A stretch of DNA of 64,000 bases from Mesorhizobium sp. B2-1-1 (GTDB lineage Bacteria; Pseudomonadota; Alphaproteobacteria; Rhizobiales; Rhizobiaceae). The notes under the pieces were generated by a model, which saw only the letters and a list, made by a program, of their open reading frames with translations, was not told the origin of the DNA and made no database searches. Shown here piece after piece: positions 13,267-56,763 of the stretch (the first letter of the stretch is position 1; every line of letters starts with the position of its first letter). The translations under genes were made by a program, and so were the position numbers. Location: NCBI RefSeq assembly GCF_006442975.2, contig NZ_CP083954.1, positions 2,425,501-2,489,500 on the forward strand, written 5' to 3'.

Positions 13267-13509
13267 CAGAACGCGGCCTGGAGCCTGGCGGTTTCAGGGC
13301 GCCCGCCCCAAATGCCGCCGCGATAGCCGCGGAACATCCAGCAATTTCCCGCGGCGATGTCTGCCGCCAAGCCGCTGCGGGAACAAGGAGCCGAGCACGT
13401 CAGTCCGTCGTCGTGCCTCGCTCCTGGCGGCAGCGGGCTCCCTTACGCCCGCTGCCGTTTTCCGCCATTTACATCAGTGGCAAATCGACTGCGGCGTGAA
13501 CCTAAACAG

Positions 13510-13650
13510 ATGTCGGGGCTCGCGGTGTTTCTTCTGCTCACCATGTTCGTCAGCACGCCCACGCTCGGCACGGGCCGCACGACGAGACTCCAGGGAGTGG
13601 TCCATCTCGGCATACTCGCCATGTTCCTGCTGATTTCGGCCGTGCCCTGA
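13510..13650 (+). pseudogene. C-terminal remnant of a ChaA-type Ca2+(Na+)/H+ antiporter
   Basis: The last 46 residues of this frame, from MSGLAVFLLLTMFVSTPTLG through GTGRTTRLQGVVHLGILAMF to the stop, match the C-terminal two helices of calcium/proton antiporters of the ChaA family. In those proteins a GTGRTNxLQGxVHL motif ends the protein. The preceding coding part does not resemble a cation exchanger, and the other roughly 300 residues are absent. This is therefore a gene relic left after deletion or rearrangement. It sits between degP and the membrane hydrolase. Confidence 0.65.
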
Positions 13651-13658
13651 AGCCCCAG

Positions 13659-15332: not shown

Positions 15333-15951
15333 TTGGGTGTTACGCCTCGAGTTGGGCCGCAGGATAACGTTGGCCTATGGTTTTTATATCTTCGGAGTCG
15401 CCCGTCCGCTATTGGCCCCCTAACCAGTCAGGCTCATGCCCTGGGTCAACATGCATCGACCCGTTTGCGGGATAAGACAGAGATACCACGCGCATTAAAA
15501 ACTAGTGCTCCTCCCGGTCCCTAGGTTCGCCAGACCGTACCAGAGAATATGAAGGAAACGGGTTGCCGAACCCTCCGCTAACGTGTTGACTTCCAGTAGA
15601 AGACGTCGACCCTCCGGGCCGACCATTGTCGTTATCCGCCATTAGGCTACGAAGCGGTTCGCCAAGGCGATTCGAGGCGATGGTCTAGACACTCGCCGAT
15701 CGCATCGTCTGCGGATGGCAGCTTTGCGCCTCCAACCCGCCGTTTAGCTCCAAACTGCGTGAGCTAGGAAGCAGACGTTGGACTAGCCCGGCCAAAGGCC
15801 CTGAAGCCATGTGGCACCGCAGCGCCGGCAATATTCGTGAACCGAGTGCTACGTTTACCCAGCGCGCTGCTTGAGTTCAGGAAAATCTGGTCTCTGCGCC
15901 AACCTTGGCCTCAGGAACATCCCCATCTACCGCCGCCTTCTCCGCCACCAG
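15333..15951. other. Intergenic region with no recognised content
   Basis: A 619-bp gap lies between the hydrolase and the SDR gene, both on the minus strand. It holds no open frame with a ribosome binding site, no tRNA-like structure and no repeat that I can see. Its edge near 15333 should carry the hydrolase promoter. Its position at the end of the sugar-acid gene set may mark an insertion boundary. Confidence 0.4.
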
Positions 15952-16848
15952 TCAAGTATCCGCAGGCTGTGTGCGCCAGTCATACTCTTGCCGGAACCCA
16001 AGGATGTCGCGCAGCTTCCGATTTGAGATCGGTCCCTCAAATACATCCAGGGCGCGTGTGACTGGTATGTTGGGTGCGTGCTTGCTGAGAAATTCCGCCG
16101 TCGGCATCTCGGCCACGATGTTGTCGTTGACTGCGTTGAATATCTGGAACCCCAAGCCGTCCTTCTCGATGCACAGATCGACGATCTGGCCAAGATCGCG
16201 CACGTCCATGTAGGTCCAGCCGTCGCGCCGCCGTTTCGAGGCGTCGGCCAGGAATTCCGGGAAGCGGCCATAATCCCGCGGTTCGACGACTCCGCCGATC
16301 CGCAGGGCATAGACGTCGGCTCCAGTACGGGAGGCGAAAGAGCGCGCAATCTTCTCGCCCAGCACTTTGGAGAGACCATAGCTGTCGGTCGGATCGACGT
16401 CATAGTCCTCGTCCACCGGAAACGATGTGAAATCGCGGTCGCCTTCGGCAAAGCACACACCGTACACCGTTTCGCTGGAAGCAGTGACGATCTTGCGGAT
16501 GCCAAGCTTGGTGGCGGCTTCGATCACATTGTAGGTCGACTGCACATTGGCGGTGAACATGGCGTTATCCGGTCGCAGGAATATCCGCGGGATCGCCGCG
16601 AAATGGACCACTGCGTCGACCGGGCCGCGGCTCCTTCCGCCGAAGTATTCGTTGAACCCGAAATGCAGCGTCAGTGCATTGTAGGTCTCGCCAGCGTCCG
16701 CAAGATTGGTGATGACGGTGTCGACGCCCTGCACATCGAGCGGCGTCAGGTCGAGATTCAGAACCTGATGCCCGCGCTCGAGCAGGTAGGGTATGACGTG
16801 ACGGCCGATCTTGCCGCTGCCGCCGGTGAAGATGATCCGCTTGCCCAT
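15952..16848 (-). CDS. NAD-dependent epimerase/dehydratase (extended SDR)
   Basis: A 298-residue extended short-chain dehydrogenase with the Rossmann motif TGGSGKIGRHV at the N-terminus and the active-site pair ASSETVYG and YGLSKV (Tyr-xxx-Lys). GAGGA precedes the ATG at 16848, so the upstream in-frame start at 16887 is not used. It is the second gene after the enolase-superfamily dehydratase, 54 bp downstream, and should share its promoter and GntR operator. Oxidation or epimerisation of a sugar or uronic acid is likely. Uronate dehydrogenases belong to the same broad family, but this one cannot be assigned that closely. Confidence 0.82.
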   Translation of the reverse strand: MGKRIIFTGGSGKIGRHVIPYLLERGHQVLNLDLTPLDVQGVDTVITNLADAGETYNALTLHFGFNEYFGGRSRGPVDAVVHFAAIPRIFLRPDNAMFTANVQSTYNVIEAATKLGIRKIVTASSETVYGVCFAEGDRDFTSFPVDEDYDVDPTDSYGLSKVLGEKIARSFASRTGADVYALRIGGVVEPRDYGRFPEFLADASKRRRDGWTYMDVRDLGQIVDLCIEKDGLGFQIFNAVNDNIVAEMPTAEFLSKHAPNIPVTRALDVFEGPISNRKLRDILGFRQEYDWRTQPADT

Positions 16849-25946: not shown

Positions 25947-26822
25947 CTACTTGAAGAACCGTATCTGCCCGGCGGGCGATGGATCGTATCCGCCAAGCTC
26001 GGCGGCGCGGCTGGCGAAGATTTCCTGCCCTAGCAAACGCAGGAGCGTCTGGATCCGTTGCTGGAAGTAGGTCCGCTGCCGCATCAGGAGATCGAAGCTT
26101 TCCCAGGCCAATGGAACGAAATCGAGGCCAGCGGCGCGGGCGGCCGCGCGCGTGGCAATTCCGCAATCGGCCCTACCAATGCGCACGGCAGCCGCGAGAT
26201 CGGGTCCGGTCAGGCAGGGCGGCTCCAACCGGTTGACGTCGTCCTGTTTCGCGCCGGAGTCCGCCAGCAATTGCGTGAGCAGCATGTCCGCGCCTGCGCC
26301 GCGTTGACGAACCGCGATGCGTGCGCCGGTCGCAAGTACGTCGGTCAGGTTGTTGAGCGATTTTGGATTGCCTGGCGCGAGCAGCAGGCCTTGCTCGCGG
26401 CGGGCGAATCCGACCAGCACCGCATCGTAAAGCCGCGGTCTGGCCGCAATCGCGGCGACATTCGGGTCCGGGTCGGGGCTGTGGAAATGAATCGCGGCGA
26501 CAGACACCTCGCCGCGCAGCAGGCGTGTCACGCCGGCTTCCGTGCCTTCCGTCAGAAAGGCCAGGCCGGAGGCTGATTGGCGGAGAGCCCATTCGAGCAG
26601 GTCGTCCTGGCTGCCACCGACGATCGGCGGCGGCTCGGATTGCGTCATTCCTGCGGGCCGGATCAACCCCGACATGACCCAACGGTCGAGTTCATGCCGA
26701 GGAAACAGCCACTTGCCCGCCACCTTGCTGCACGGGACACGCTCCTCCGCAATCAGCTCATAAAGCTTGCGCTCACCAATGCGCAGATAGTCGGCGGCTT
26801 CGGACGTCGTCAGCAAATCCAT
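25947..26822 (-). CDS. One-component tungstate/molybdate regulator: HTH fused to oxyanion-binding domain
   Basis: The 291-residue protein begins with an excisionase/MerR-like helix-turn-helix (LLTTSEAADYLRIGERKLYE, residues 2-50). It continues with a periplasmic-binding-protein-like domain without a signal peptide, of the type fused to regulators of molybdate and tungstate genes (COG1910, PF12727). I start it at the ATG at 26822, where the helix-turn-helix begins; no ribosome binding site is seen, so the mRNA may be leaderless. The gene diverges from tupBCA, whose expression it probably controls in response to cytoplasmic tungstate or molybdate. A closely similar domain ends the MoeA fusion at 30368. 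Confidence 0.85.
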   Translation of the reverse strand: MDLLTTSEAADYLRIGERKLYELIAEERVPCSKVAGKWLFPRHELDRWVMSGLIRPAGMTQSEPPPIVGGSQDDLLEWALRQSASGLAFLTEGTEAGVTRLLRGEVSVAAIHFHSPDPDPNVAAIAARPRLYDAVLVGFARREQGLLLAPGNPKSLNNLTDVLATGARIAVRQRGAGADMLLTQLLADSGAKQDDVNRLEPPCLTGPDLAAAVRIGRADCGIATRAAARAAGLDFVPLAWESFDLLMRQRTYFQQRIQTLLRLLGQEIFASRAAELGGYDPSPAGQIRFFK

Positions 26823-26831
26823 CCTGCATTG

Positions 26832-26841
26832 ATATGCATAT
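26832..26841. promoter_or_regulatory. Palindrome in the regulator/tupB intergenic region
   Basis: ATATGCATAT is a perfect 10-bp palindrome starting 10 bp upstream of the regulator start codon, followed by CCTGTTCAGG at 26843. The divergent region also holds TTGACA elements near 26865 and 26890 on the tupB side. A binding site for the oxyanion-responsive regulator is a reasonable guess only. Confidence 0.35.
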
Positions 26842-26917
26842 TCCTGTTCAGGTTCAAGGATTTGACAGTGACGGAGGAGTTGCAGGACATTGACACGGGA
26901 CAGGACTGCGAGGAGCA

Positions 26918-27610
26918 ATGTCGGAAGGGCTGGGCGCATGGCAACTGATCGCGAGCGGCGACGCCACGCTGTTTGCCATCGTGCGCCTGTCGCTCGCCGT
27001 GAGCCTTTCGGCTGTCGCGATCGCCATGATCGCCGGCCTTCCGCTGGGCGCAATTATCGCGCTGGCGCGCTTTCCCGGTCGTTCGGCGATCGTCGTGCTG
27101 CTGAACGGTTTCATGGGCCTGCCGCCGGTGGTGGTCGGGCTGACGGTCTATCTGCTGCTATCGCGATCCGGGCCGCTGGGTGAATTCGGCCTCTTGTTCA
27201 CACCCGCCGCGATGGTCATCGCGCAGGCGCTACTGGTGCTGCCCATCATTGCCGCGCTGACTCGCCAAACGGTCGAGGATCTGTGGCGCGAGTACCGTGA
27301 GGAACTGACTGCGATGCAGGTCGGGCCGGCGGGCTTGGTCGCCACGCTTTTGTGGGACGGCCGCTTCAGCCTCGTCACGGCTCTGCTCGCGGGTTTCGGC
27401 AGGGCGGCGGCCGAGGTCGGCACCGTGATGATCGTCGGCGGCAACATTGATGGCTTCACCCGCACCATGACGACGGCAATCGCACTTGAAACCTCGAAGG
27501 GAAACCTGCCGCTCGCCATGGGGCTCGGCCTGATGCTGATTTTCCTCATCTTGCTGATCAACGCCGCCGCCTGGGGCGTGCGAGTTTGGTCCGAGCAACG
27601 GGCTGGCTAG
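26918..27610 (+). CDS. tupB: Tungstate ABC transporter permease
   Basis: A 230-residue inner-membrane permease with about five transmembrane helices and a permease loop around EDLWREYREELTAMQVG. The later segment GRAAAEVGTVMIVGGNIDGF is typical of TupB/WtpB-like proteins, which have a conserved EVG near the channel. GAGGAG precedes the ATG. The following ATPase gene starts 2 bp after its stop, so the two are translated together. Confidence 0.88.
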   Translation: MSEGLGAWQLIASGDATLFAIVRLSLAVSLSAVAIAMIAGLPLGAIIALARFPGRSAIVVLLNGFMGLPPVVVGLTVYLLLSRSGPLGEFGLLFTPAAMVIAQALLVLPIIAALTRQTVEDLWREYREELTAMQVGPAGLVATLLWDGRFSLVTALLAGFGRAAAEVGTVMIVGGNIDGFTRTMTTAIALETSKGNLPLAMGLGLMLIFLILLINAAAWGVRVWSEQRAG

Positions 27611-27612
27611 GG

Positions 27613-28335
27613 ATGCGGGCTGCTCAGAGCGATCTTCCACTTGTCCTCGATGACGTGTCGCTGGTCGCCGGTGCGACGACCATCCTGGACCGGGTGAACC
27701 TGACGATCGGGCCGCGCGCGCCGACTCTGGTCGTCGGCCCGAACGGGTCGGGCAAAACCTCCCTGCTGCGGCTCTGCATGGGGCTTGTTGCACCTTCTGC
27801 TGGAACCCTGACTTGGGGGGGACGAACGTTTTCCCCGCCGACACGGCGTGCAATCCTGTTCCAGAAGCCGGTGATGCTGCGTCGCTCGGCAGCCGCGAAT
27901 GTCGCCTATGCACTGGCTCAAGCGGGCTGTCCGCGCCGGCTCCGGGCCCCGCGCGTGGAGGAACTGCTCGAGCGCGTTGGTCTTCTCGATCTCGCGACAC
28001 GTCCGGCACGGCATCTCTCCGGTGGCGAGCAGCAGCGGCTGGCCCTCGCCCGCGCCCTGGCGCGCCAGCCGGAAATCCTGCTGCTCGACGAGCCGACAGC
28101 CAGCCTCGATCCGGCGGCGACGCGTTTTGTCGAGCAGATCATCATCACGGCTGCCCAATCGGGCACGAAGATCATCATGGCGTCGCACCATCTCGGTCAA
28201 GTGCGCAGAATCGCGGGAGACGTCGTTTTTCTGCTCCGAGGGCGCGTTTGCGAGCATGCCGACGCCGACGACTTCCTTGACCGCCCCGCGACCCCGCAAG
28301 CCGCTGCCTTCGTGCGCGGCGAGCTCGTGCTTTGA
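27613..28335 (+). CDS. tupC: Tungstate ABC transporter ATP-binding protein
   Basis: A 240-residue ATPase with Walker A GPNGSGKTS, signature LSGGEQQR, Walker B ILLLDEPTASLD and the switch His in MASHHLGQ. A short C-terminus follows, lacking the TOBE domain of ModC. The ATG at 27613 directly follows the permease stop. A TTG at 27586 is possible but overlaps tupB. It drives import with TupB and TupA. Confidence 0.88.
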   Translation: MRAAQSDLPLVLDDVSLVAGATTILDRVNLTIGPRAPTLVVGPNGSGKTSLLRLCMGLVAPSAGTLTWGGRTFSPPTRRAILFQKPVMLRRSAAANVAYALAQAGCPRRLRAPRVEELLERVGLLDLATRPARHLSGGEQQRLALARALARQPEILLLDEPTASLDPAATRFVEQIIITAAQSGTKIIMASHHLGQVRRIAGDVVFLLRGRVCEHADADDFLDRPATPQAAAFVRGELVL

Positions 28336-28355
28336 TCAACTGGACCGAGATTGAG

Positions 28356-29183
28356 ATGCTGACCCGCCGAATATTCTCTGCGCTTGTGGTGCTTCTGATG
28401 CTAGCAGGCGGCGCGCCTGCCCAGGACCAGTCGATCGTCGTGGCGTCGACGACCTCGACCCAGGATTCCGGCCTGTTCGATCACATCCTGCCGCTGTTCG
28501 AGAAGAAAACCGGCATCGGCGTGAAGATTGTCGCTCAGGGCACCGGTCAGGCGCTCGACACCGGTCGGCGCGGCGATGCCGACGTGGTCTTCGTCCATGC
28601 CAAGGCGCAGGAGGAGAAGTTCATCGAGGAAGGCTTCGGGGTGAAGCGCTTCGACGTGATGTACAACGACTTCGTCCTCGTTGGCCCCAAGAGCGACCCA
28701 GCGGGCGTCAGCGGGACCAAGGACATCGCAGCCGCGCTGATTGCCATCAAAGCCAAGAAGGCGGCCTTCGTGTCGCGTGGTGACAGGTCCGGCACCCATT
28801 CGGCCGAATTGGGTCTGTGGAAGACGACCGGCATCGACATCGAGGCGGCCAGGGGCCCATGGTACAAGGAGATCGGGCAGGGCATGGGGGCGGCGCTCAA
28901 CGCCGCGGCAGCCATGAACGCCTATACGCTTTCCGATCGTGGCACCTGGCTGTCGTTCAAGAATCGTGGCGAGTTGGACATCGCCGTCGAGGGCGACAAG
29001 CGGCTGTTCAACCAGTATGGCGTGATGCTGGTGAATCCTCATAAGCATCCAAGCGTCAAAGTGGAGGCCGGCCAGCGCTTCATCGATTGGCTGATTTCTC
29101 CGGAAGGCCAGAAGGCGATCGGAGAGTACAAGATCGACGGCCAGCAGCTCTTCTTCCCGAACGCGCAGCGCGGGCGTTCCTGA
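28356..29183 (+). CDS. tupA: Tungstate-binding periplasmic protein
   Basis: The 275-residue binding protein begins with a Sec signal (LTRRIFSALVVLLMLAGGAPA). The tungstate-specific N-terminal motif ASTTSTQDSGLFD then coordinates the oxyanion in characterised TupA proteins. Later segments (DADVVFVHAKAQEEKF, SRGDRSGTHSAELGLW) also match the family. The ATG at 28356 gives the proper signal; a TTG at 28332 overlaps tupC. With TupB and TupC it forms a high-affinity importer that prefers tungstate over molybdate. This suits the formate dehydrogenase encoded further on. Confidence 0.92.
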   Translation: MLTRRIFSALVVLLMLAGGAPAQDQSIVVASTTSTQDSGLFDHILPLFEKKTGIGVKIVAQGTGQALDTGRRGDADVVFVHAKAQEEKFIEEGFGVKRFDVMYNDFVLVGPKSDPAGVSGTKDIAAALIAIKAKKAAFVSRGDRSGTHSAELGLWKTTGIDIEAARGPWYKEIGQGMGAALNAAAAMNAYTLSDRGTWLSFKNRGELDIAVEGDKRLFNQYGVMLVNPHKHPSVKVEAGQRFIDWLISPEGQKAIGEYKIDGQQLFFPNAQRGRS

Positions 29184-29225
29184 AGCTGGTTGCAAACAGG
29201 CTCGCGTCTGCTTCAATATCGCGCC

Positions 29226-30353
29226 ATGACGAGAACGTTTTCTTCGACGGGCCCGCTGACTCCCCTGGAAGCGGCGCTCGACGCGCTGCTCGATGGTGTA
29301 ATGCCCGTCACCCCCCGCTTGGTGCCGCCTGAACAAGCCTTGGGCTATGTCGCTGCCGGGATGCCGCCTGTCGTGCCGGCTCAGCCTGTGCGAGACATCG
29401 CTGCCGTCGACGGCTGGGCGTGTCGCGCCCTCGACCTCATGGGGGCATCAGCCTATTCGCCCTTAGTTTTGCCGGTCGCGCCGATCTGGGTCGAGACGGG
29501 TGAGGCCATGCCTGAAGATCGCGACTGTGTGCTGCAGGCCGGCCTCGTCGATTGCAGTGGACCGATGATCCAAGCAGCAGCTGAAGCGGTGCCCGGTCAG
29601 GGTGTGCGCCGGGCGGGCGAGGATATGGCGGCGGCCCGCCCGCCAATGCTTGAGGGAAAGGCGATCGGCGTCGCCGACCTGCTGGTCGCCCGCAAAGTGG
29701 GACTGAGCCAGCTTGCCATACGGAGCCCGCGCGTGCGCGTGATCGATGTCGCTGCCGACAGCCACGAGACATTCTCCATGCGGCTCGTGGTCGAGAGCCT
29801 GAGTGCCTCGGGCGTTTCGATCGTCGGTATAGAGACCGTAGAGCGCGACGCGGCATCGATCATTGTCGCTCTTGACGGCGAGGCCTGCGATTTTCTGCTC
29901 CTGATCGGCGGTACTGGTGACGGCCACGCCGACGTGACCGCCGAGGCTCTGGCGCGGCGCGGGGTGTTGATTGGGCACGGCATTGCCTTACGGCCCGGAA
30001 GGACAACGGCAATAGGCCGGCTCGGCAAGACACCGGTGGTCGCATTGGCCGGATCGCCGCACCAAGCTTTCGCCGGGTTCCTTGCGCTTGTCCAGCCAGT
30101 CCTGGACCGCCTGTCGGGCAGATCTGAACGGCCCGGCATCATCTTGCCGCTCTCGCGGAAAATCTCATCCGCGGTCGGACTTTACGAGCTCGTTCTGCTC
30201 GGGAAGGAAAGGGACATGTGGACGCCGCTCGCGGTCGGCGACTTTTCGCTGGACGCGATGCGGCTTGCCGACGCCTGGCTTGCGGTCCCGGGCGATAGCG
30301 AAGGGTATGCCGCCGGTACGCCCGTCTCCGCCTTTCCGCTCCGCAACTTTTGA
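29226..30353 (+). CDS. Divergent MoeA-like molybdopterin biosynthesis protein
   Basis: A 375-residue protein aligned to MoeA by AAVDGWACRALDL (compare SAVDGYAVRGADL in the standard copy at 33967), CVLQ after a Pro-Glu-Asp metal-insertion-type segment, and the molybdopterin-binding loop region LLIGGTGDGHADVTAEAL. The loop differs from the usual SGGxSxGxxD, which suggests altered chemistry or substrate. It lies 42 bp after tupA and 14 bp before the fused MoeA gene. A role in choosing or loading tungsten is inferred from the operon. It could also be a regulatory or inactive paralogue. Confidence 0.8.
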   Translation: MTRTFSSTGPLTPLEAALDALLDGVMPVTPRLVPPEQALGYVAAGMPPVVPAQPVRDIAAVDGWACRALDLMGASAYSPLVLPVAPIWVETGEAMPEDRDCVLQAGLVDCSGPMIQAAAEAVPGQGVRRAGEDMAAARPPMLEGKAIGVADLLVARKVGLSQLAIRSPRVRVIDVAADSHETFSMRLVVESLSASGVSIVGIETVERDAASIIVALDGEACDFLLLIGGTGDGHADVTAEALARRGVLIGHGIALRPGRTTAIGRLGKTPVVALAGSPHQAFAGFLALVQPVLDRLSGRSERPGIILPLSRKISSAVGLYELVLLGKERDMWTPLAVGDFSLDAMRLADAWLAVPGDSEGYAAGTPVSAFPLRNF

Positions 30354-30367
30354 TCGAGTGAGCCGCT

Positions 30368-32317
30368 ATGACGAATTCTCCATCATCGGCCCGGCAGAAC
30401 AGCGGGCAGGAGCAGTTCCTGACGATATTGTCGCGCGAAGCTGCGCTGGCTCGCTTCGAGGCAGCGCTGTTTCCCCGCCCGTTGCCGACCGAGACGCGGA
30501 CGCTGGCCGACGCGCTCGGGCTGGTTCTTGCCGAGGACGTGGCGGCGCCGGTCGACGTGCCGCCCTTCGACCGCTCCAATGTCGATGGCTTCGCGGTACG
30601 TGCGGCCGATCTGGCTGCCGCCTCTGAAACCCGTCCCGTTCGGCTTGAGCTGAATGCGGAAGCGATTGCCTGCGGCACGGTTCCGCAACTCCCCGTTCTG
30701 ACCGGAACCGCCACGCCCATCGCAACCGGCGGGCCGCTGCCGCGTGGCGCGGACGCCATCATCATGGTGGAGCATACGCATCCGGTGGGATTGAGTGCCA
30801 TCGAGGTGGGGCGCGGCATCTCGCCCGGCCAGTTTGTCTCCAATGCAGGATCCGACATGGCGCGAGGAGAGGTCGTGCTGCGCACCGGAACGCAAATCGG
30901 CTCGCGCGAAATCGGCATGCTCGCCGCGTGCGGAATCGCACAAGTGGCCGTGGCGCGCAGGCCACGCGTGGCCGTGCTCTCCACTGGCGATGAACTCGTT
31001 CAGCCGGGCGAGCCGCTGCGGGCGGCCGGCATCTATGACGCCAACGGGCCGATCATCGCTGCGGCTGTCACTGAAAATGGCGGCGAAGCGCATTTTCTCG
31101 GCGCGTTCCCGGACGACGAGGCAACGCTTGAGACGGCTATGCGCGAGGCGCTCGCCGCCCACGACGTAATGATCCTGTCGGGCGGCACGTCCAAAGGGGC
31201 AGGGGATGTCACGCATCGCATTATCGGCCGACTGGGCAAACCCGGCATCATCGCCCACGGCGTGGCGCTGAAGCCCGGAAAGCCGCTTTGCCTTGCGGTG
31301 TGCGGGGGCAAGCCGGTCATCGTCCTGCCGGGATTTCCGACCTCGGCCATGTTCACCTTCCATGACATGGTGGTACCCGCCCTGCGGCGCATGGCGGGGC
31401 TGCCGCCGCGCGTCGATGCTCAGGTCACCGCAAGCCTTCCGTTGCGGGTTCCTTCAGAACTCGGACGGACCGAATTCGCGATGGTCTCCCTTGTGCAAGG
31501 GCAGGGAGGATTGACGGCCTATCCGACTGGTAAGGGCTCGGGAGCGATAACATCCTTTACCCAGGCGGATGGCTTCATCCGCATCGAGGCCCTGGCCGAT
31601 CACGTGCCTGCCGGTGCCGACGTGCCGGTGACGCTGTTCACGCCGCGGGTCCGCGTTCCCGACCTCGTCGTCATCGGCAGTCATTGCGTCGGCCTCGATC
31701 TGGTCGTTGGCGAACTTTCGCGTCGCGGTATTTCGGTGCGCTCGCTGTCTGTGGGAAGCCTGGGCGGTCTTGCGGCGGCCAAGCGCGGCGAGTGCGATCT
31801 CGCTCCCATCCATCTCTTCGACCCGAAGACGCGGAACTACAACGCGCCCTTCCTCGGTGACGGTCTCGAACTCGTGCCAGGCTGGCGGCGCATGCAAGGT
31901 TTGGTGTTCCGCCGAGGGGACGAGCGCTTCGAGGGCCTCGGCGCGGAGGATGCGGTCCGTGCCGCGCTCGCCGATCCCGATTGCATGATGGTCAACCGCA
32001 ACCAAGGCTCGGGAACGCGTATCCTGATCGACCAACTCCTCGGCGCGGAACGCCCGGACGGCTACTGGAACCAGCCGCGCACACACAATGCCGTGGCCGC
32101 GGCTGTGGCACAGAAGCGCGCTGACTGGGGCGTCACCATTGCGCCGGTCGCGCGTGCGGCCGGGCTCGGTCTTATCCCGTTGACCGAAGAGCACTACGAC
32201 TTCGCGCTGGTTTGCGCGCGAAAGGATCGGCCCGCGGTGCACGCGTTCCTCGAAGTTCTCCAGGCCGACGAGGTGCATTCGGCGCTGGAGCGCGCGGGGT
32301 TCAGCCGGCCGGGTTAG
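30368..32317 (+). CDS. MoeA fused to a cytoplasmic oxyanion-binding domain
   Basis: This 649-residue two-part protein has an N-terminal MoeA body (about residues 25-425). It shows [13 protein letters not shown], the molybdopterin loop [13 protein letters not shown] and the [12 protein letters not shown] motif. A C-terminal binding-protein-like domain of the COG1910/PF12727 type follows (from about residue 430, with [20 protein letters not shown] and [17 protein letters not shown]). MoeA inserts metal into adenylated molybdopterin, so the second domain may hold or sense tungstate or molybdate at the point of use. Its 3' end overlaps mobA on the other strand by 17 bp. No signal peptide is present. 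Confidence 0.9.
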
Positions 32318-32942
32318 CGTCGAGCAACGCGGCCAGCCGCTCGGCTTCGGCGAGGTCCTCGACCGTGTTGGCGTTGAAGAACGGGTCCACGGGCTCTGCC
32401 GGCCAGGATACGGTGGCAAGGCCGTAGCGGGTGGTCCACCGGTCGATCTTGCGCAGGCCCTCGTTGGTCAACGCATGCCGCAATTCGTCCCGCAGGGCGA
32501 CTTTCCAGAGCCCGATGACCGGATGCGCCTGACCACCGGATGCCGCCACCGCCAAATCCGCCCCCTCGGTCATGCGCGCCCGCTGGAGGCGTGCAACGAG
32601 GTCGCGCGGCAGGAAAGGACAATCACCGGCGGCGCTGACCATCCACTCGACGTCGGGCCTGTTGTCCGCCGTCCAATCGAGCGCGGCGAGCATGCCGGCG
32701 AGCGGCCCCGGATAACCCTCGATCGTGTCGGCGACGACGGGCAGGCCAAAACGGGCGAAACGAACGGGGTCGCCATTGGCATTAAGCACGAGCCCGTCGC
32801 ATTGCGGTCCCAGCCGTTCGATGACATGCTCGAGCATCGTGCGTCCGCCGATCACGCGCGTCGGCTTGTCCCCGCCGCCCATGCGCCGACCCAGACCGCC
32901 GGCGAGCACGACGCCCAGCGTCATGGGCCGCTCAGTCGTCAT
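32301..32942 (-). CDS. mobA: Molybdenum cofactor guanylyltransferase
   Basis: A 213-residue nucleotidyltransferase that attaches GMP to molybdopterin to form the guanine dinucleotide cofactor. The N-terminal [15 protein letters not shown] loop and the AGDCPFLP metal-binding motif are present. The start at 32942 overlaps the fdhD stop by 11 bp, so the two are translated together; the ATG at 32924 is an alternative. Formate dehydrogenases of this class carry the bis-MGD form, so MobA serves the enzyme encoded from 37374. The gene is convergent with the MoeA fusion. Confidence 0.93.
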
Positions 32943-33825
32943 GCTCGGCACCCTTGCGGCGGTGGCGCGGCGCTTCCTCATCGACCGAAGCGATATCCTG
33001 GTCGAAGACGATCCGCTCCTGGCCTGAAAGTGCGGTGAAGCGCTTGCCGCGCGCCCGACCGACCAGCGTCAGCCCCACTTGGCGGGCCAGCGCCACGCCC
33101 CAGGCGGTGAAGCCGGAACGCGAAACCAGGATGGGAATGCCCATCCGAACCGTCTTGATCGTCATCTCGGAGGTCAGCCTCCCGGTCGTGTACATGATCT
33201 TATCCCCCGGATCGATGGCGTGGCGGTACATCCAGCCGGCGATCTTGTCGACAGCGTTATGGCGGCCGACGTCTTCCATATAGCAGATTGGCGTGCCCTT
33301 CCTGCAAAGGACGCAGCCATGGATGGCGCCTGCTTCCAGATAGAGCGACGGCGTGGTGTTGATTTTGTGCGTCAGCTCGTAGAGCCAGGAGGTGCGAAGC
33401 TCAGCGGGCGGGAGCGTGATGTCCTCGATCGCCTCCAGCACGTCGCCGAAGGCAGTGCCTTGGGCGCAACCCGAAGTCTGCGTTCGCTTTCTGAGCTTCT
33501 GCTCGTAGTCGGTGTTGCGCTCGGTGCGAACGACCACGACCTGGAGGTCCTCGTCATACTCGACGTCCGTCACCACATCGGTGGGCAGAAGCATGTTCTG
33601 GTTCAGCAGATAGCCGAGCGCAAGATATTCAGGGTAGTCGTTGACCGTCATCATCGTGACGATCTCCTGAGCGTTGAGATAGAGCGTCAGGGCACGTTCG
33701 ATCGGTACGCGGACCTCTACCGTCGCGCCTGTTTGGTCGATGCCCGCAACCAGCTCCGTCAGCCGTTGGTCTTGCGGATCGGGTGTGATGATGGCGTGTT
33801 CCGGTTGGCGTAGCATCAAAGGCAT
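32932..33825 (-). CDS. fdhD: Formate dehydrogenase accessory sulfurtransferase
   Basis: A 297-residue FdhD, which in E. coli transfers sulfur from IscS to the bis-MGD cofactor. The family region [17 protein letters not shown] is clear. The E. coli Cys121-x-x-Cys124 motif is here Cys120-Ala-Gln-Gly, so only the first cysteine is kept. A new pair, Cys171-Val-Leu-Cys174, appears in the middle of the protein (HGCVLCRKG). It is in an operon with mobA and divergent from the moeA gene, with 141 bp between. Sulfuration of the tungsten or molybdenum centre of the formate dehydrogenase is the expected role. Confidence 0.95.
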
Positions 33826-33966
33826 GGCAGTCTCCTGACGTCGTATTCTGGCTCGCGCCTGCGCTAGCTTGCCGTATCTTACAGGCTGTTCAACCGAAGC
33901 TGATTAAAAAAAGCCGGATTGATGCGATTACGAAGAAGCCGACACGCTCGTAGAGTGGGAATATAA

Positions 33967-35223
33967 ATGGCGCAAATCTCGGATGACTGCTTCGCTTTCG
34001 GCGGACAGATGCGGCCCATCGACGAGACTGCCGCGCTGATCGCCTCGAAACTCAGCGCCGTAGAGGAGGTCGAGACGGTCCCGCTCTTGCTGGCGGATGG
34101 GCGCGTCCTGGCAAAAAAGATGGTGGCATCGCTGCCGCTGCCGCCCTTCACCAATTCCGCGGTCGACGGCTACGCCGTGCGAGGGGCAGACCTGCCGCAG
34201 ACTGTCGAGACGGCGTTCGCCGTTGCCGGGAGGGTTCAGGCCGGCATGGCGGCGAATGAACCTGTGCGGCCGGGCCAGACGGTACGCATCTTCACTGGCG
34301 CTCCAATGCCCGACGGGGTCGACACGGTGTTCATGCAGGAAGACGTGAGCATCGACGGCTCCGGCAGGATCCTTCTCCCGCCCGGCCTGAAAAAGGGTGC
34401 CAATGTGCGCCCTGCGGGTGAAGATGTCGCATTGGGCGAGGCCGTCCTCCCGGCGGGCCATCGGATGCGGCCGCAAGATATCGCGCTCGCCGCCGCATTG
34501 GGGTTCACGGAACTCCAGGTTAGGCGCAGGATACGCGTCGCAGTGTTCTCGACCGGGGACGAAATCGTCGCGCCGGGAGACATGCGCGGACCGGCGCAGC
34601 TTTTCGACTCCAACCGTTTCATGCTGACGGCGATGCTCGCTCGACTCTGCTGCGACATCACCGATCTCGGTATCCTCGTGGATGACAGCAGACTGATCGC
34701 TGAAAAGCTGAGCGAAGCGGCATTAAGCCATGACCTGATCCTGACTTCGGGCGGTGTGTCGACGGGCGAGGCAGATTGCGTGAAGGCCGCCGTCGAGAGT
34801 GCCGGAACCCTGGTGTTCTGGCGCGTCGCGATCAAGCCGGGCCGGCCGGTCGCCATGGGGGTGATCGATGGAACCCCGCTGATCGGACTTCCTGGCAATC
34901 CGGTGGCGAGCTTCGTCACCTTCGCGCATATTGCCCGCCCGGCAATCCTCGCCCTTGCGGGGGCCCTCCAGCAACCACCGACCCCGATCGCTATGCGGGC
35001 CGCCTTTTCCTATAGCAAAAAGCAGGGACGGCGCGAGTATGTGCGAGCAAGCGTACGCGCGGCCGCGGATGGATGCTACGAAGCGACGAAGTTTCCCAGG
35101 GAAGGCGCAGGACTGTTGTCATCCCTGGTCGCGACCGACGGTCTCGTCGAGTTGGGAGAGGAGATAGTCCGTGTCGAGCCAGGTCACACGGTCCAGTTCC
35201 TCCCCTATTCCAGTCTTATGTGA
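33967..35223 (+). CDS. moeA: Molybdopterin molybdenumtransferase
   Basis: A standard-size MoeA of 418 residues that inserts molybdenum or tungsten into adenylyl-molybdopterin. Features in order are the N-terminal domain with SAVDGYAVRGADL, the metal-site Asp-Glu region (PDGVDTVFMQEDV), the MoCF loop LTSGGVSTGEADCV, and LPGNPVASFVTF. A C-terminal beta-barrel follows. A GGGA site precedes the ATG. This is the third MoeA-like protein within 6 kb, and the one with the most typical motifs. It is the first gene of the group leading to the formate dehydrogenase. Confidence 0.94.
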   Translation: MAQISDDCFAFGGQMRPIDETAALIASKLSAVEEVETVPLLLADGRVLAKKMVASLPLPPFTNSAVDGYAVRGADLPQTVETAFAVAGRVQAGMAANEPVRPGQTVRIFTGAPMPDGVDTVFMQEDVSIDGSGRILLPPGLKKGANVRPAGEDVALGEAVLPAGHRMRPQDIALAAALGFTELQVRRRIRVAVFSTGDEIVAPGDMRGPAQLFDSNRFMLTAMLARLCCDITDLGILVDDSRLIAEKLSEAALSHDLILTSGGVSTGEADCVKAAVESAGTLVFWRVAIKPGRPVAMGVIDGTPLIGLPGNPVASFVTFAHIARPAILALAGALQQPPTPIAMRAAFSYSKKQGRREYVRASVRAAADGCYEATKFPREGAGLLSSLVATDGLVELGEEIVRVEPGHTVQFLPYSSLM

Positions 35224-35299
35224 GCGCCGTCGGATCGCGTCCTCGAAACGAGAGCCGCAACCCAGGCTCGATTGACGCGGCCAGGTCCCGTCGGGCATC

Positions 35300-35551
35300 A
35301 TGCCGACCATGATAACCACGACGAAGCTGGATCTGACCGGGCTTAAGTGCCCTTTGCCCGCGCTCAAGACCCGCAAGGCGTTGAAAGCCTTGAGGCCAGG
35401 CGAGCGGCTCGAGGTTCACTGCACGGACCCGCTGGCGGTCATCGATATCCCCAATCTGCTCAACGAGATGGGCGAGCGACTTGAAGCGACGGAGCGCGAC
35501 GGCGATCGCGTCGTGTTCATGATCGAAAAGACGCAGCCCGCGACGATGTGA
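35300..35551 (+). CDS. TusA-family sulfur carrier
   Basis: An 83-residue protein with the SirA/TusA signature LDLTGLKCPLPALKTRKAL; the cysteine is the predicted persulfide carrier. In E. coli, related proteins pass sulfur to thiouridine or to molybdenum cofactor enzymes. The neighbouring fdhD and formate dehydrogenase genes suggest it donates sulfur to the cofactor pathway; this is an inference. An in-frame ATG at 35309 is an alternative start. It is 77 bp after moeA. Confidence 0.88.
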   Translation: MPTMITTTKLDLTGLKCPLPALKTRKALKALRPGERLEVHCTDPLAVIDIPNLLNEMGERLEATERDGDRVVFMIEKTQPATM

Positions 35552-35700
35552 CGAGTTGCACCCCGTCGGCGGCGGCCCCAAGATTTGCGACGCAATGCTT
35601 GCGCTAGTCGTGCAGGGGACATGTCGTGCCTCATAGTCGACATCCTGGTCCGCGGGGTATCGTTAAGAGGTAAGGGCGTTTCACTCGGGGAGGTGAGCAC

Positions 35701-37374
35701 ATGACGATCCAGGAACGACGGCCGCGTGATCGCGGACCAAAGGGCAGGCCGCTGGATGACGCTGCGCTCGCCGAGGTTCAGGCGCTCCTGGGCGCGCGCC
35801 AGCGACGGCGCGACTTGCTGATCGAATTCCTTCATCTGATCCAGGACCGATATGGCTGCCTGTCGGCGCGGCATTTGCGGGCGCTGGCGCAAGATATGCG
35901 CTTGTCGCAGGCCGAGGTCTACGAGGTGGCGACCTTCTACGACCATTTCGACGTTGTGAAGGAAGGCGAGATGCCGCCTGCGCCGTTGACAATCCGCGTG
36001 TGCGATTCAGTGAGTTGCATGCTGGCGGGCGCCGACACGCTCCTGGCTGAATTGCAAGCGGGCGCCGATCCAGCGGCGATCAGGGTCATGCGCGCGCCCT
36101 GCATGGGCCGTTGCGCTGGCGCGCCTGCCGCGCGTATCGGTGATCGCGAGGTCGACCAGGCAACCGCCGAGGGCCTGAGGCGCATGGCCGCGGCAGCGGA
36201 GACCGGTGTGAACGTGCCCGATTATGTCGGGCTGGAGGCGTATCGGCAGGCGGGCGGCTACCAGCTTTTGCAGCGGGTACGGATTGGGGCGCTGACCACG
36301 GACGAGCTCATCGCCACCGTGGGCGATGCGGGCTTGAGGGGTCTGGGCGGTGCGGGTTTTCCCGCTGGCAAGAAGTGGCAGTTCGTGCGTTCCTATCCGG
36401 GCCCGCGTCTGATGTCGATCAATGGCGACGAGGGGGAGCCCGGCACCTTCAAGGACCGCATCTATCTCGAGCGAGATCCGCACCGTGCCTTTGAGGGTGC
36501 ATTGATCGCGGCGCACGCCGTCGAGGCGGAACGGATCTATCTTTACATGCGTGACGAATACCCTGCGGTGCTCGCCATTCTTCGTCAGGAGATCGCCGCA
36601 CTCGAGGCCACCGGCATCGTCAAGCCGGGCTTCATCGAGCTCCGCCGCGGCGCTGGTGCGTATATCTGCGGCGAGGAGAGTGCGATGCTGGAAAGCATCG
36701 AGGGCAAGCGCGGCATGCCGCGCCACCGCCCCCCCTACATCGCCGAGGTCGGCCTGTTCGGACGACCGACGCTCAACCATAATGTCGAGACGCTCTGGTG
36801 GATCCGCGACATCGTCGAAAAGGGCGCGCAATGGTTCGCTGCGCAGGGCAGGCCCGGCCACCGTGGCATCCGCTCATGGTCCGTATCCGGCCGGGTGAAA
36901 AATCCCGGCGTCAAGCTGGCGCCGGCCGGCGTCACGGTACGCGAATTGATCGACGACTATTGCGGCGGTATGGCGGACGGTCATGAGTTCAAGGCCTATT
37001 TGCCGGGTGGCGCCTCAGGCGGCATCCTGCCAGCAGCACTGGGGGACATTCCGCTCGATTTCGGCGGCGATCTGGCCAAGCAGGGCGCCTTCGTCGGGTC
37101 CCATGCTATAGTCGTGTTCTCGCGGGCCGACAATATAAAGCAGGTCACGCTCAACCTCATGAAATTCTTCAAACATGAGAGCTGCGGGAAGTGCACGCCT
37201 TGTCGCGAGGGAACCGAAAAGTTGGTGGCTATCTTGCAGGAGCAGGGCCCGATGCCGGAAGACAAGATTCGCGACCTCGAAGCCGTGATGCGCGATTCGT
37301 CGATCTGCGGCCTGGGCCAGGCGGCGCCCAATCCGATCAACCATCTGCTGACGCATTTCCGGAGTGACCTCTGA
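35701..37374 (+). CDS. NAD-dependent formate dehydrogenase beta subunit (NuoE-NuoF fusion)
   Basis: A 557-residue diaphorase subunit that combines two proteins. The NuoE-like part (about 1-170) has 2Fe-2S ligands in CDSVSC and CMGRC. The NuoF-like part has the FMN/NAD region GGAGFPAGKKW, the segment CGEESAMLESIEGKRGMPRH and the 4Fe-4S ligands ESCGKCTPCREG plus a later Cys in SSICGLGQ. The same fusion is known from the tungsten-dependent FDH1 of Methylobacterium. It hands electrons from formate to NAD+. GGGGAGG precedes the ATG. The stop overlaps the next start as TGATG, so the two subunits are made together. Confidence 0.9.
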   Translation: MTIQERRPRDRGPKGRPLDDAALAEVQALLGARQRRRDLLIEFLHLIQDRYGCLSARHLRALAQDMRLSQAEVYEVATFYDHFDVVKEGEMPPAPLTIRVCDSVSCMLAGADTLLAELQAGADPAAIRVMRAPCMGRCAGAPAARIGDREVDQATAEGLRRMAAAAETGVNVPDYVGLEAYRQAGGYQLLQRVRIGALTTDELIATVGDAGLRGLGGAGFPAGKKWQFVRSYPGPRLMSINGDEGEPGTFKDRIYLERDPHRAFEGALIAAHAVEAERIYLYMRDEYPAVLAILRQEIAALEATGIVKPGFIELRRGAGAYICGEESAMLESIEGKRGMPRHRPPYIAEVGLFGRPTLNHNVETLWWIRDIVEKGAQWFAAQGRPGHRGIRSWSVSGRVKNPGVKLAPAGVTVRELIDDYCGGMADGHEFKAYLPGGASGGILPAALGDIPLDFGGDLAKQGAFVGSHAIVVFSRADNIKQVTLNLMKFFKHESCGKCTPCREGTEKLVAILQEQGPMPEDKIRDLEAVMRDSSICGLGQAAPNPINHLLTHFRSDL

Positions 37375-40166
37375 TGGCCGAGAGCGTGGTATTCACCCTC
37401 AATGGGCAAACCGTGAGCGCCGCCCCTGGCGAGACTATCTGGGATGTCGCCAAGCGCCAGGGAACAAAGATTCCGCATCTGTGCCATGTCGACATGCCGG
37501 GCTATCGTCCCGACGGCAATTGCCGCGCCTGCATGGTCGACATCGAAGGCGAGCGCGTGCTGGCTGCCTCCTGCGTTCGCCAGCCTTCCGCCGGCATGGT
37601 CGTGAAAACCGATACCGAACGCGCCCGCAAATCGCGCGAGATGGTATTCGAGCTCCTCGCAAGCAACATGCGACCGGCGAGCGACGGTCCAGACAACCAG
37701 TCGGCATTCTGGCAATGGGCCGGTTCGATGGGGATTTCGGGCAGCCGATACCGTTCCAAGTTCACCGAGGAGGGGCTAGCGCCAGAATTCGACATCACCA
37801 ATCCGGCCATTGCCGTCAATCTCGACGCGTGCATCACCTGCGGCGCTTGCGTGCGCGCCTGCCGCGAGGTGCAGGTCAACGACGTGATCGGCATGGCCGA
37901 GCGCGGCAATCACTCGATTCCTGTCTTCGATATGCACGATCCGATGGGCCTGTCGACCTGCGTCACCTGTGGCGAATGCGTCCAGGCTTGCCCGACTGGT
38001 GCGCTCTACGAGAAATCGCTGATGGACGAGACCGGCAAGACGCGTGTCGTCCAGGCGTTCGACAAGGTCGTCGATACGGTTTGCCCGTTTTGCGGCGTTG
38101 GCTGCCAGACGCAGGTCGCTGTCAAGGACAATAAAATCGTCCAGGTTGACGGCCGTAACGGTCCGGCGAACGAGAACCGGCTCTGCGTCAAGGGGCGCTT
38201 TGGCTTCGACTATGTGATGTCGCCCGAACGGCTGACGAAGCCGCTGATCCGTCGCGACGACGCGCCGAAGGCCGGCGACATTGATCTGCGCAGTGTCGAC
38301 CCGCTGACAGTGTTCCGCGAGGCCAGCTGGGAAGAGGCGCTGGAGCGCGCTGCCAGCGGGCTGAAACGCATCCGCGACCAGCATGGTGGCAAGGCGCTGG
38401 CTGGCTTCGGCTCGGCAAAGGGGTCGAATGAGGAGGCCTATCTCTTCCAGAAATTCGTCCGGCAGGGTTTCGGCACCAACAATATCGACCACTGCACCCG
38501 GCTCTGCCACGCCTCTTCCGTGGCCGCTCTGATGGAGGGCGTCGGCTCTGGCGCGGTCTCGGCGCCTTTCATGGACGCCATGAAGGCCGAATGCGTGATC
38601 ATCATCGGGGCGCGGCCGGCGACAAACCATCCAGTGGCCGCCACCTATTTCAAGCAAGCGGCAAAGCGCGGCACCAAGCTGATCGTGATGGATCCGCGCG
38701 GCCAGGAACTGATGCGCCACGCCAGCTATGCGCTGCGCTTCAAGCCGGGCAGCGACGTGGCGATGCTCAACGCGCTGCTGCACGTCATCATAGAAGAGAG
38801 GCTCTATGACGAGCAGTACATCCAGGCCAATGTCTCCGGCTTCGAGGCATTGAAGGCCAAGGTGAAGGATTTTTCGCCCGAGGCGATGGCTCCCGTCTGC
38901 GGCATCGAGGCCGGTGTACTGCGCGAGGTGGCGCGCACCTATGCCAAGGCGGAGCGCTCGATGATTTTTTGGGGCATGGGCATTTCGCAGCACACCCACG
39001 GCACGGACAATTCGCGCTGCCTGATCGCGCTGGCGCTGATCACGGGGCATGTCGGGCGCGCCGGCACAGGCCTGCATCCGCTGCGCGGCCAGAACAATGT
39101 CCAGGGCGCCTCGGACGCGGGCCTCATCCCGATGTATTTCCCCGACTACAAATCGGTGGAGAATGCCGATATCCGCGGCCAGTACGAGAATTTCTGGGGC
39201 CAGACGCTCGACCCCAAACGCGGCTTGACCGTCGTCGAGATCGTCGACGCGATCCATGACGGCGAGATCCGGGGCATGTACATCATGGGCGAGAACCCGG
39301 CCATGTCCGATCCGGACCAGAGCCATGCGCGCGCCGCACTCGCCAAGCTAGAGCATCTGGTTGTTCAGGACATCTTCCTGACCGAAACAGCGTGGCATGC
39401 CGACGTGGTGCTCCCTGCCTCCGCGCATGCTGAGAAGCTCGGCACTTACACCAATACCAATCGGCAGGTGCAGATCGGCCGGCCGGCCGTCAACCTGCCG
39501 GGCGAGGCGCGGCAGGATCTCGATCTCATCATCGAGCTTGCCAGACGCATGGGGCTGGACTGGAACTACGGGCACGTTTCGGACGTCTTCGGCGAAATGG
39601 CGCAAGTAATGCCGTCGCTGAAGCACATTTCCTGGGAGCGCATCGAACGCGAGGAGTCCGTCGTCTATCCTGCCGATGGTCCTGATGTTCCTGGCAACGA
39701 GATCGTCTTCACCACCGGGTTTCCGACCGCGGATGGCCGCGGGCGCATCGTGCCCGCCGACCTCCTGCCTCCCGACGAGGTGCCCGACGACGAATATCCT
39801 CTGGTGCTAACCACTGGTCGCTTGCTGGAGCACTGGCACACGGGCGCCATGACGCGCCGCGCCGGGGTGCTCAACGCGATCGAGCCCTACGGCATTGCCG
39901 CGATGAATCCCTACGAGATCAAGCGCCGCGGCCTTGCGCAGGGAGACGTGATCAACGTGGAGACGCGGCGCGGCGTCGTCGAAGCCATTCTGCGGGCCGA
40001 TCGAGAGGTCGCCGATGGCATGGTGTTCATGCCGTTCTGCTTTAACGAGAGCCCGGCCAACATGCTTACCAATCCTATGCTCGATCCTTACGGCAAGATC
40101 CCCGAGTTCAAATATTGTGCCGCGCGGATCGTGCCGGCATCGAGATCGGTCGAAGCTGCCGAATGA
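37374..40166 (+). CDS. fdhF: Formate dehydrogenase catalytic (alpha) subunit, W/Mo-bis-MGD
   Basis: A 930-residue catalytic subunit oxidising formate to CO2. The N-terminal 2Fe-2S domain holds HLCHVDMPGYRPDGNCRAC. Two 4Fe-4S clusters follow (CITCGACVRACREVQ and CVTCGECVQACPTG), then the cofactor-domain cluster CPFCGVGCQTQV. The metal ligand is Cys378 in NNIDHCTRLCHASSV, not selenocysteine. The 1-bp overlap with the beta subunit gives fixed stoichiometry. No separate gamma or delta subunit follows, as in two-subunit FDH1 enzymes. Tungstate importer and cofactor genes close by make tungsten likely, though molybdenum cannot be excluded. Confidence 0.94.
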   Translation: MAESVVFTLNGQTVSAAPGETIWDVAKRQGTKIPHLCHVDMPGYRPDGNCRACMVDIEGERVLAASCVRQPSAGMVVKTDTERARKSREMVFELLASNMRPASDGPDNQSAFWQWAGSMGISGSRYRSKFTEEGLAPEFDITNPAIAVNLDACITCGACVRACREVQVNDVIGMAERGNHSIPVFDMHDPMGLSTCVTCGECVQACPTGALYEKSLMDETGKTRVVQAFDKVVDTVCPFCGVGCQTQVAVKDNKIVQVDGRNGPANENRLCVKGRFGFDYVMSPERLTKPLIRRDDAPKAGDIDLRSVDPLTVFREASWEEALERAASGLKRIRDQHGGKALAGFGSAKGSNEEAYLFQKFVRQGFGTNNIDHCTRLCHASSVAALMEGVGSGAVSAPFMDAMKAECVIIIGARPATNHPVAATYFKQAAKRGTKLIVMDPRGQELMRHASYALRFKPGSDVAMLNALLHVIIEERLYDEQYIQANVSGFEALKAKVKDFSPEAMAPVCGIEAGVLREVARTYAKAERSMIFWGMGISQHTHGTDNSRCLIALALITGHVGRAGTGLHPLRGQNNVQGASDAGLIPMYFPDYKSVENADIRGQYENFWGQTLDPKRGLTVVEIVDAIHDGEIRGMYIMGENPAMSDPDQSHARAALAKLEHLVVQDIFLTETAWHADVVLPASAHAEKLGTYTNTNRQVQIGRPAVNLPGEARQDLDLIIELARRMGLDWNYGHVSDVFGEMAQVMPSLKHISWERIEREESVVYPADGPDVPGNEIVFTTGFPTADGRGRIVPADLLPPDEVPDDEYPLVLTTGRLLEHWHTGAMTRRAGVLNAIEPYGIAAMNPYEIKRRGLAQGDVINVETRRGVVEAILRADREVADGMVFMPFCFNESPANMLTNPMLDPYGKIPEFKYCAARIVPASRSVEAAE

Positions 40167-56717: not shown

Positions 56718-56763
56718 TCCTCAACCCTCCCCAGGTTCACGCGGCCCGGCCGACTTGGCGATG

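Follow-up and report, generated by a model that had tools for sequence, protein, structure and literature searches.

The closest described counterpart of the locus reported here is the formate dehydrogenase 1 (FDH1) route of Methylorubrum extorquens AM1 (PMC13197769; structure 7vw6). Table 2 of PMC13197769 lists tungsten in FDH1, with molybdenum below detection, for the wild type and for viable deletion strains that keep the metal; the same report gives MoeA1, MobB and FdhD as required for tungsten loading of the enzyme (MeFDH1), and describes the loading of tungsten rather than molybdenum in aerobic bacteria as poorly understood. Here we analysed a 64-kb window from Mesorhizobium sp. B2-1-1 (positions 2,425,501 to 2,489,500 of contig NZ_CP083954.1; the host genome is 6.18 Mb in two contigs, cited below as C1 and C2, and positions given without a contig are those of the window). 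Between 25947 and 40166 it carries genes for a two-subunit formate dehydrogenase (FDH), a tungstate-type transporter (tupBCA) and cofactor maturation proteins, and this stretch is very likely to be a horizontally acquired tungsten-FDH1 island. We recognised no tungsten-FDH island in rhizobia, and no FDH1-tup co-occurrence, in the open-access literature listings searched, beyond the M. extorquens work; the basic idea is already known, since the tungsten-FDH1/MoeA1 pathway of M. extorquens is published, and what is added here is a quantified FDH1-tup link, an apparent mosaic, classes of FdhD and the displacement of a mobA gene.

The strongest evidence comes from 397 genomes of the order (G, L, g and f numbers are our own labels for genomes, loci, genera and families). 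FDH matches (E<=1e-100) are found in 297 of these genomes and tupA (E<=1e-25) in 182. We defined the FDH1 class by a gap in identity to the island FdhA (57% vs 39%; the threshold was chosen after the gap was seen): among the matches listed, FDH1 proteins are 57-100% identical to it and the next lower rows 37-39%. By this definition FDH1 is present in 130 genomes (131 loci, a few fragmentary), and tupA is found in 126 of them, against 28 of the 167 genomes whose FDH matches all score lower and 28 of the 100 without a match at the threshold. Kinship was controlled by a within-genus comparison on 330 of the 397 genomes, those of noted genus (130 + 167 + 33 from the genera at issue), which gave a Mantel-Haenszel odds ratio of about 35 for tupA given FDH1 (20 genera holding both states). 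In the host's own genus tupA occurs in the one genome with FDH1 and in none of eight without it; some genera show no contrast (e.g. g26, with tupA in 2/2 genomes with FDH1 and 9/10 without). An earlier note on this DNA, which had read the locus as a self-contained tungsten FDH island, had suggested co-occurrence in related genomes as a check, and tupA indeed proves near-obligate with FDH1. The TTSTQDSG tungstate motif that the same note had pointed out is present in TupA (residues 40-47), but alone it is weak evidence, and far more weight lies in the genome-wide co-occurrence.

The enzyme itself has the FDH1 architecture proposed earlier: FdhB is a NuoE-NuoF fusion and FdhA has N-terminal FeS domains. 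Its kinship with a tungsten enzyme also holds, as the best solved structure for FdhA is MeFDH1 (7vw6; 1386 bits over residues 4-930, through to the end), whereas the molybdenum enzyme FdsA of Rhodobacter capsulatus (6tg9) reaches 568 bits only. The active-site cysteine of FdhA presumably lies within RLCHA. Among the best 80 FdhA loci, the closest named relatives are from Mesorhizobium and one Chelativorans (86-88% identity). The host encodes a second FDH, in the Fds range (C1:144240, 39% identical to the island FdhA), with an FdhD of its own at 147290. Fds-type molybdenum FDHs with FdsC/FdhD (R. capsulatus, 6tg9) are NAD-linked like the island enzyme, but Fds-range proteins are only 37-39% identical to the island FdhA (rows listed), and their linked FdhDs differ as well (see below). 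Taken with the tupA-FDH1 co-occurrence and the tungstate-type TupA, this kinship makes a tungsten-dependent enzyme in a rhizobium plausible, as had been argued, and the assignment of FdhAB as a tungsten enzyme appears well supported at the level of sequence.

Every member of the gene set named by the earlier note was located by family-profile and structure matches, in the order regulator (-), tupB, tupC, tupA, moeX and MoeA-PBP (+), mobA and fdhD (-), then moeA1, tusA, fdhB and fdhA (+):

25947-26822, - strand, regulator: HTH_17 (PF12728) plus a cytosolic PBP_like domain (PF12727, oxyanion-binding type)
26832-26846, + strand, candidate operator ATATGCATATTCCTG, in the regulator-tupB spacer and followed by a TTGACA box; putative function
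26918-27610, + strand, tupB, tungstate ATP-binding cassette (ABC) permease: NF041773 170 bits (under cut-off), NF038017 241 bits (over cut-off)
27586-28335, + strand, tupC, ABC ATPase, named from context
28332-29183, + strand, tupA, tungstate-binding protein: NCBIfam TupA 252 bits; oxyanion-site residues
29190-30353, + strand, moeX, degenerate MoeA paralogue of 387 aa with no MoeA_C (domain IV) match
30368-32317, + strand, MoeA with a C-terminal PBP_like fusion (MoeA-PBP): PRK14498 790 bits, cut-off 534
32301-32981, - strand, mobA, guanylyltransferase for bis-molybdopterin guanine dinucleotide (bis-MGD): 216 bits, cut-off 152
32932-33825, - strand, fdhD, single-cysteine (TSGCAQG) class: PF02634 243 bits; under both NCBIfam cut-offs
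33967-35223, + strand, moeA1, metal insertase, canonical-type MoeA: PRK10680 420 bits, cut-off 440
35300-35551, + strand, TusA-like sulfur carrier: PF01206, CPLP motif
35701-37374, + strand, fdhB, NuoE+NuoF-like diaphorase subunit (24K+51K fusion), by profile matches
37374-40166, + strand, fdhA, FDH1-type catalytic subunit: TIGR01591 728 bits, cut-off 666; N-terminal 2Fe-2S/4Fe-4S domains

The names of TupA, TupB, FdhD and MoeA1 lean also on context and structures, because their profile scores fall below the equivalog cut-offs (the curated NCBIfam cut-offs are 400 bits for TupA and 320 bits for TupB). The block from tupA to fdhA is colinear in seven Mesorhizobium/Chelativorans genomes (L010-L013, L024, L035 and L075; protein identity 52-88%), and the layout is not due to chance, because the block keeps its order in these and recurs in further genomes.

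In M. extorquens AM1, the gene META1_5032 is presumably fdh1A. This FDH gene (PMC12628762), like fdhD (META1p3475) and mobA (META1p5015; both PMC13197769), is numbered apart from the moeA1 cluster, which Table 1 of PMC13197769 gives as a MoeA5-MoeA3-MobB-MoeA1 run (META1p3047-3050) that we liken to the island maturation genes; the Discussion of that paper names a cluster moeA1-mobB-tupBCA. The island shares with AM1 the two-subunit FDH1 and the IKPGR + Ala pocket of MoeA1. Unlike in AM1, fdhBA, fdhD, mobA and tusA join the cluster here and mobB lies elsewhere; the host also has two FdhDs and a decayed resident mobA, whereas the FdhD of AM1 is reported to serve both metals (PMC13197769).

Other genomes show further arrangements. 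In L016 a divergent tup set lies between tusA and fdhB, beside FDH1; in L022 the maturation genes are present from moeX onward, with no tupA within the 1.9 kb preceding moeX. The order in family f35 resembles that of the island, with mobB ahead of moeA1, and one genome (G387) has a major facilitator superfamily (MFS) gene between tusA and fdhB. In two f35 genomes, G035 (L205) and G327 (L109), the tupA next to the island is accompanied by neither a tupB nor a tupC match, and another tupA is found elsewhere (in G327 with tupB near this second copy).

The best structural match of TupA is the tungstate-binding protein 3lr1, and it also aligns with Desulfovibrio alaskensis TupA (5my5; PMC5517513): residues T10, T11, S12, R118, T124 and D170 of the latter are identical in the alignment (R118, T124 and D170 correspond to R149, T155 and the D of YTLSDRGT), and the first Thr of the D. 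alaskensis TTTS motif (T9) is Ser39 here. Although its best match is below the NCBIfam equivalog cut-off, TupABC would therefore be a tungstate-type transporter by homology and oxyanion-site residues. The regulator has no solved structural match better than E 0.68. Its open reading frame reaches 27053 with a TTG start, and the start at 26822, which leaves about 95 bp before tupB, is probably the true one, judging from this spacer and from the likeness in relatives. The candidate operator ATATGCATATTCCTG has a single exact site in the 64 kb, in this spacer; with up to three mismatches allowed there are four matches (0.64 expected), of which one is this palindromic site read on the opposite strand. 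G336, G387, G364 and G167 each have it with one mismatch, accompanied by TTGACA or TTGACT; at one-mismatch stringency it was not seen in clusters of other families (G339, G285 and G019). The PBP domain of the regulator is 30% identical to that of MoeA-PBP, which suggests that sensor and loader may read the same ligand.

Among the MoeA-type proteins, MoeA1 has R293 and A314 at the positions of R291 and A312 of M. extorquens MoeA1 (matched by the motifs KPGR and GNPVA alone), pocket residues reported to bias MeMoeA1 toward tungsten (IKPGR and Ala312; PMC13197769). The R,A pair is found in all the MoeA1 proteins fetched from genomes with FDH1 and tup (46/46), with tup only (9/9), with tup and an aldehyde:ferredoxin oxidoreductase (AOR; 8/8) and with FDH1 but not tup (1/1). 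The two other proteins are more divergent: out of 52 core MoeA residues (positions with 97% conservation or more in an alignment of 92 proteins), moeX keeps 24 and MoeA-PBP 37. By locus order they may be the counterparts of M. extorquens MoeA5 and MoeA3, respectively. Archaeal MoeA1 is a MoeA-PBP that co-occurs with TupA (PMC11733289), and the island MoeA-PBP shares this architecture and linkage; it differs from what that source describes in adjoining a separate MoeA1 without the PBP domain and a degenerate MoeA. The tungsten insertase of M. extorquens is MoeA1 (PMC13197769), by length and order apparently also of the type without the PBP domain. The proposal of dedicated loading factors is not supported for every part: among the three MoeA-like proteins, moeA1 alone has a counterpart published as a tungsten loader, and moeX has lost 28 of the 52 core residues. 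A further candidate MoeA, L002 (a MoCF-domain match), was rejected (16% identity to MoeA1, poor alignment); separately, a MoCF-domain match across two frames at C2:216912-217342 (L007, L008) is perhaps a decayed gene.

FdhD proteins were scanned in 101 loci of FDH1/tup regions and the window, and obtained from 25 loci and the window. The single-cysteine loop TSGCA(Q/V)G is found in 25 out of these 26 proteins (five are from near-identical single-cell genomes), including the island FdhD, which has PF02634 and TSGCAQG in place of the CxxC loop. The exception, L119, is a partial Fds-class FdhD that lies within reach of FDH1, and one single-cysteine FdhD (L125) is from a genome without FDH1. In contrast, all 15 FdhDs obtained beside Fds-range fdhA (16 loci scanned) have the CxxC loop GCGLCG. 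FdhD thus divides by linked enzyme in this sample, unlike in the survey of 41 FdhDs in PMC6239281, which found CxxC not conserved, saw no Mo/W division and reported the cysteines of FdhD/FdsC as not essential.

Several observations weigh against the reading as a tungsten-FDH1 island, and there are three rival explanations. Deletion of MoeA5 or MoeA3 in M. extorquens is reported to leave 0.37 or 0.33 mol tungsten per mol, against 0.48 in the wild type, at 30 uM tungstate (PMC13197769), and as M. extorquens manages with one FdhD for molybdenum and tungsten enzymes (same source), the FdhD split is not obligatory. An explanation in which the island feeds the FDH and MoeA1 sets the metal, while moeX, MoeA-PBP and the single-cysteine type of FdhD are neutral passengers, draws on the small effect of these deletions and on the dispensable FdhD/FdsC cysteines; we hold it to be unlikely, though clearly the best of the rivals. 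moeX and MoeA-PBP are retained together in clusters of f1, f11, f20, f30, f34, f35 and f42, the FdhD classes separate cleanly, and no trace-tungsten test of the moeA3 and moeA5 deletions was found in the parts of PMC13197769 used here. Sensing, which the earlier note had listed among the functions covered, is not supported for the island as a whole: the conserved candidate operator was found only ahead of tupB, and a scan allowing up to three mismatches gave no further copy from tupB to the end of fdhA, and none before moeA1 or fdhB.

With respect to the metal, FDH1 is found without tupA in four of the 130 genomes (G083, G153, G287 and G379; completeness reaches 98% or more in two of these). 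The R,A pair also occurs in 11 out of 14 MoeA1-type proteins fetched from genomes that have neither tup nor FDH1 (the remaining three have K,A), and the host's housekeeping MoeA (L005) has K,A, so that the Ala is shared. We therefore rejected the R293/A314 pocket as a marker of tungsten use, since the pair is not exclusive to tup/FDH1 genomes; the Arg of MoeA1 is consistent with tungsten use but no proof of it, and the Ala appears uninformative. These cases, and the scores of TupA, TupB, FdhD and MoeA1 below curated cut-offs, would fit an FDH that uses molybdenum or either metal, with tupBCA as a general oxyanion importer or a shield of molybdenum enzymes from tungstate. We consider this improbable: tupA follows FDH1 and not the Fds-range matches, M. 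extorquens FDH1 holds tungsten, and an AOR-family domain (PF01314) is found in 28 of the 56 genomes with tupA but without FDH1 (and in none of the four FDH1 genomes lacking tupA), sometimes close to moeA1 and tupA (G203, G382).

With respect to acquisition, the inference rests on patchy presence and on trees. The G+C content is 0.64-0.66 across the island (26001-40000) and drops to 0.60-0.63 on the immediate upstream side and 0.56-0.60 on the downstream side, but the window reaches comparable values at 12001-16000 and 56001-58000, so the rise is not unique within it. Conserved island flanks gave only two weak matches among 12 loci, both in L035, and because of this the insertion site is undefined and no empty site is shown. 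FDH1 and tupA are both absent from the eight sampled genomes of the host's genus. In the FdhA tree (42 rows) the island protein joins Aurantimonas, Hoeflea and f40 with support 100/100 and is distant from f35; in the MoeA1 tree (38 rows) the island protein joins f35 and G058 with support 100/99 and is distant from f40. Identities to the island agree: f35 has 65-66% in FdhA and 67-70% in MoeA1, and f40 has 76% in FdhA and 43-46% in MoeA1 (the f40 MoeA, a best match only, could be a paralogue; the MoeA1 tree contains no row for Aurantimonas or Hoeflea). Because the trees disagree, moeA1 and fdhA seem to have different histories although adjacent, and the island looks mosaic. That the neighbourhood is an accidental vertical relic of one clade, its genes without common function, is very improbable: tupA upstream of fdhA is confined to Mesorhizobium and Chelativorans among the best 80 FdhA matches (eight of 45 loci whose 10-kb upstream flank is complete), but fdhA and tupA lie within 16 kb of each other in at least 19 genomes of at least seven families, with varying gene orders, and neither the conflicting trees nor the absences within the genus fit such a relic.

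The tungsten-FDH1 island is neither self-contained nor wholly dedicated. It has no mobB, a gene found beside moeA1 in f35: the host's mobB is at C1:3663108, 1.2 Mb away, and if the MobB requirement reported for M. extorquens (PMC13197769) holds, this resident mobB must serve FDH1. MobB is present in all of the 80 FDH1 genomes examined (out of 130). Nor is MobA dedicated, as the island copy is the only MobA over the cut-off (TIGR02665) in the host genome. We compared 15 genomes, including eight of the same genus: the resident locus, drug/metabolite transporter (DMT)-mobA-mobB-solute-binding protein (SBP), is present in all eight, which lack the island. The host keeps DMT, mobB and SBP, but its mobA has lost about 470 bp from the interior and only the two ends are left (the remnant is at about C1:3663500-3663750, L100:1950-2190, between the DMT gene and mobB); the island MobA is the sole copy because of this decay. 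The sample holds one more genome of the same family with the island, G336; here too no MobA but that of the island exceeds the cut-off, and at the resident locus (L202, C5:93500-99500) mobA is missing and an MFS transporter gene separates DMT from mobB. As the two loci differ, there were two losses, or one loss followed by a later change.

Based on these comparisons, TupBCA would import tungstate, and the helix-turn-helix regulator probably responds to an oxyanion in the cytosol and regulates tupBCA via the 26832-26846 site. MoeA1 and the resident MobB, which would replace the mobB found beside moeA1 in related clusters, would insert tungsten into adenylylated molybdopterin, as shown in M. extorquens; MoeA-PBP and moeX probably aid the capture of scarce tungstate. 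The island MobA would then make W-bis-MGD, and the single-cysteine FdhD, perhaps supplied by the TusA-like carrier, would sulfurate it and pass it to FdhAB, which may oxidise formate with NAD+ or reduce CO2. After the arrival of the island, its MobA may have taken over bis-MGD synthesis cell-wide as the resident mobA decayed.

More tentatively, and at somewhat less than an even chance, we propose a portable alphaproteobacterial tungsten-cofactor module (tup, moeX, MoeA-PBP, MoeA1/MobB, single-cysteine FdhD and MobA) that is re-paired with varied clients (FDH1 of different ancestry, aldehyde oxidoreductase and FDH-N-like enzymes), with the island MobA, having displaced the resident one, making bis-MGD for all molybdenum enzymes of the host, and with the FdhD pool split into a single-cysteine class specific for tungsten and a CxxC class specific for molybdenum. 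In G019 and G237, which have tupA but neither FDH1 nor AOR, a protein of about 1000 aa that resembles FDH but scores under the TIGR01591 cut-off is encoded some 5 kb or less from moeA1 (G019) or from tupA (G237); no FdhA relatives were found around tup in G146 and G301. The FDH-like proteins of about 1000 aa at L241:12773-15889 and L245:2010-5027, which lie near tup or near tup/moeA1/fdhD in genomes that lack both FDH1 and AOR, are possibly further tungsten clients.

The island and an Fds-range FDH with its own FdhD in one cell form a natural two-metal comparison, in a host whose close relatives lack the island while it recurs in other families. The decayed resident mobA suggests a route by which an acquired metal pathway can enter core metabolism. 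As tungsten FDH1 is wanted for CO2 reduction, the island genes are candidate co-expression partners.

Elsewhere in the window no Rfam element was found at the gathering threshold over the 64 kb. Two divergently oriented arginine-ornithine antiporter-like genes lie at its start (1115-2545 on the - strand and 2811-4244 on the + strand).

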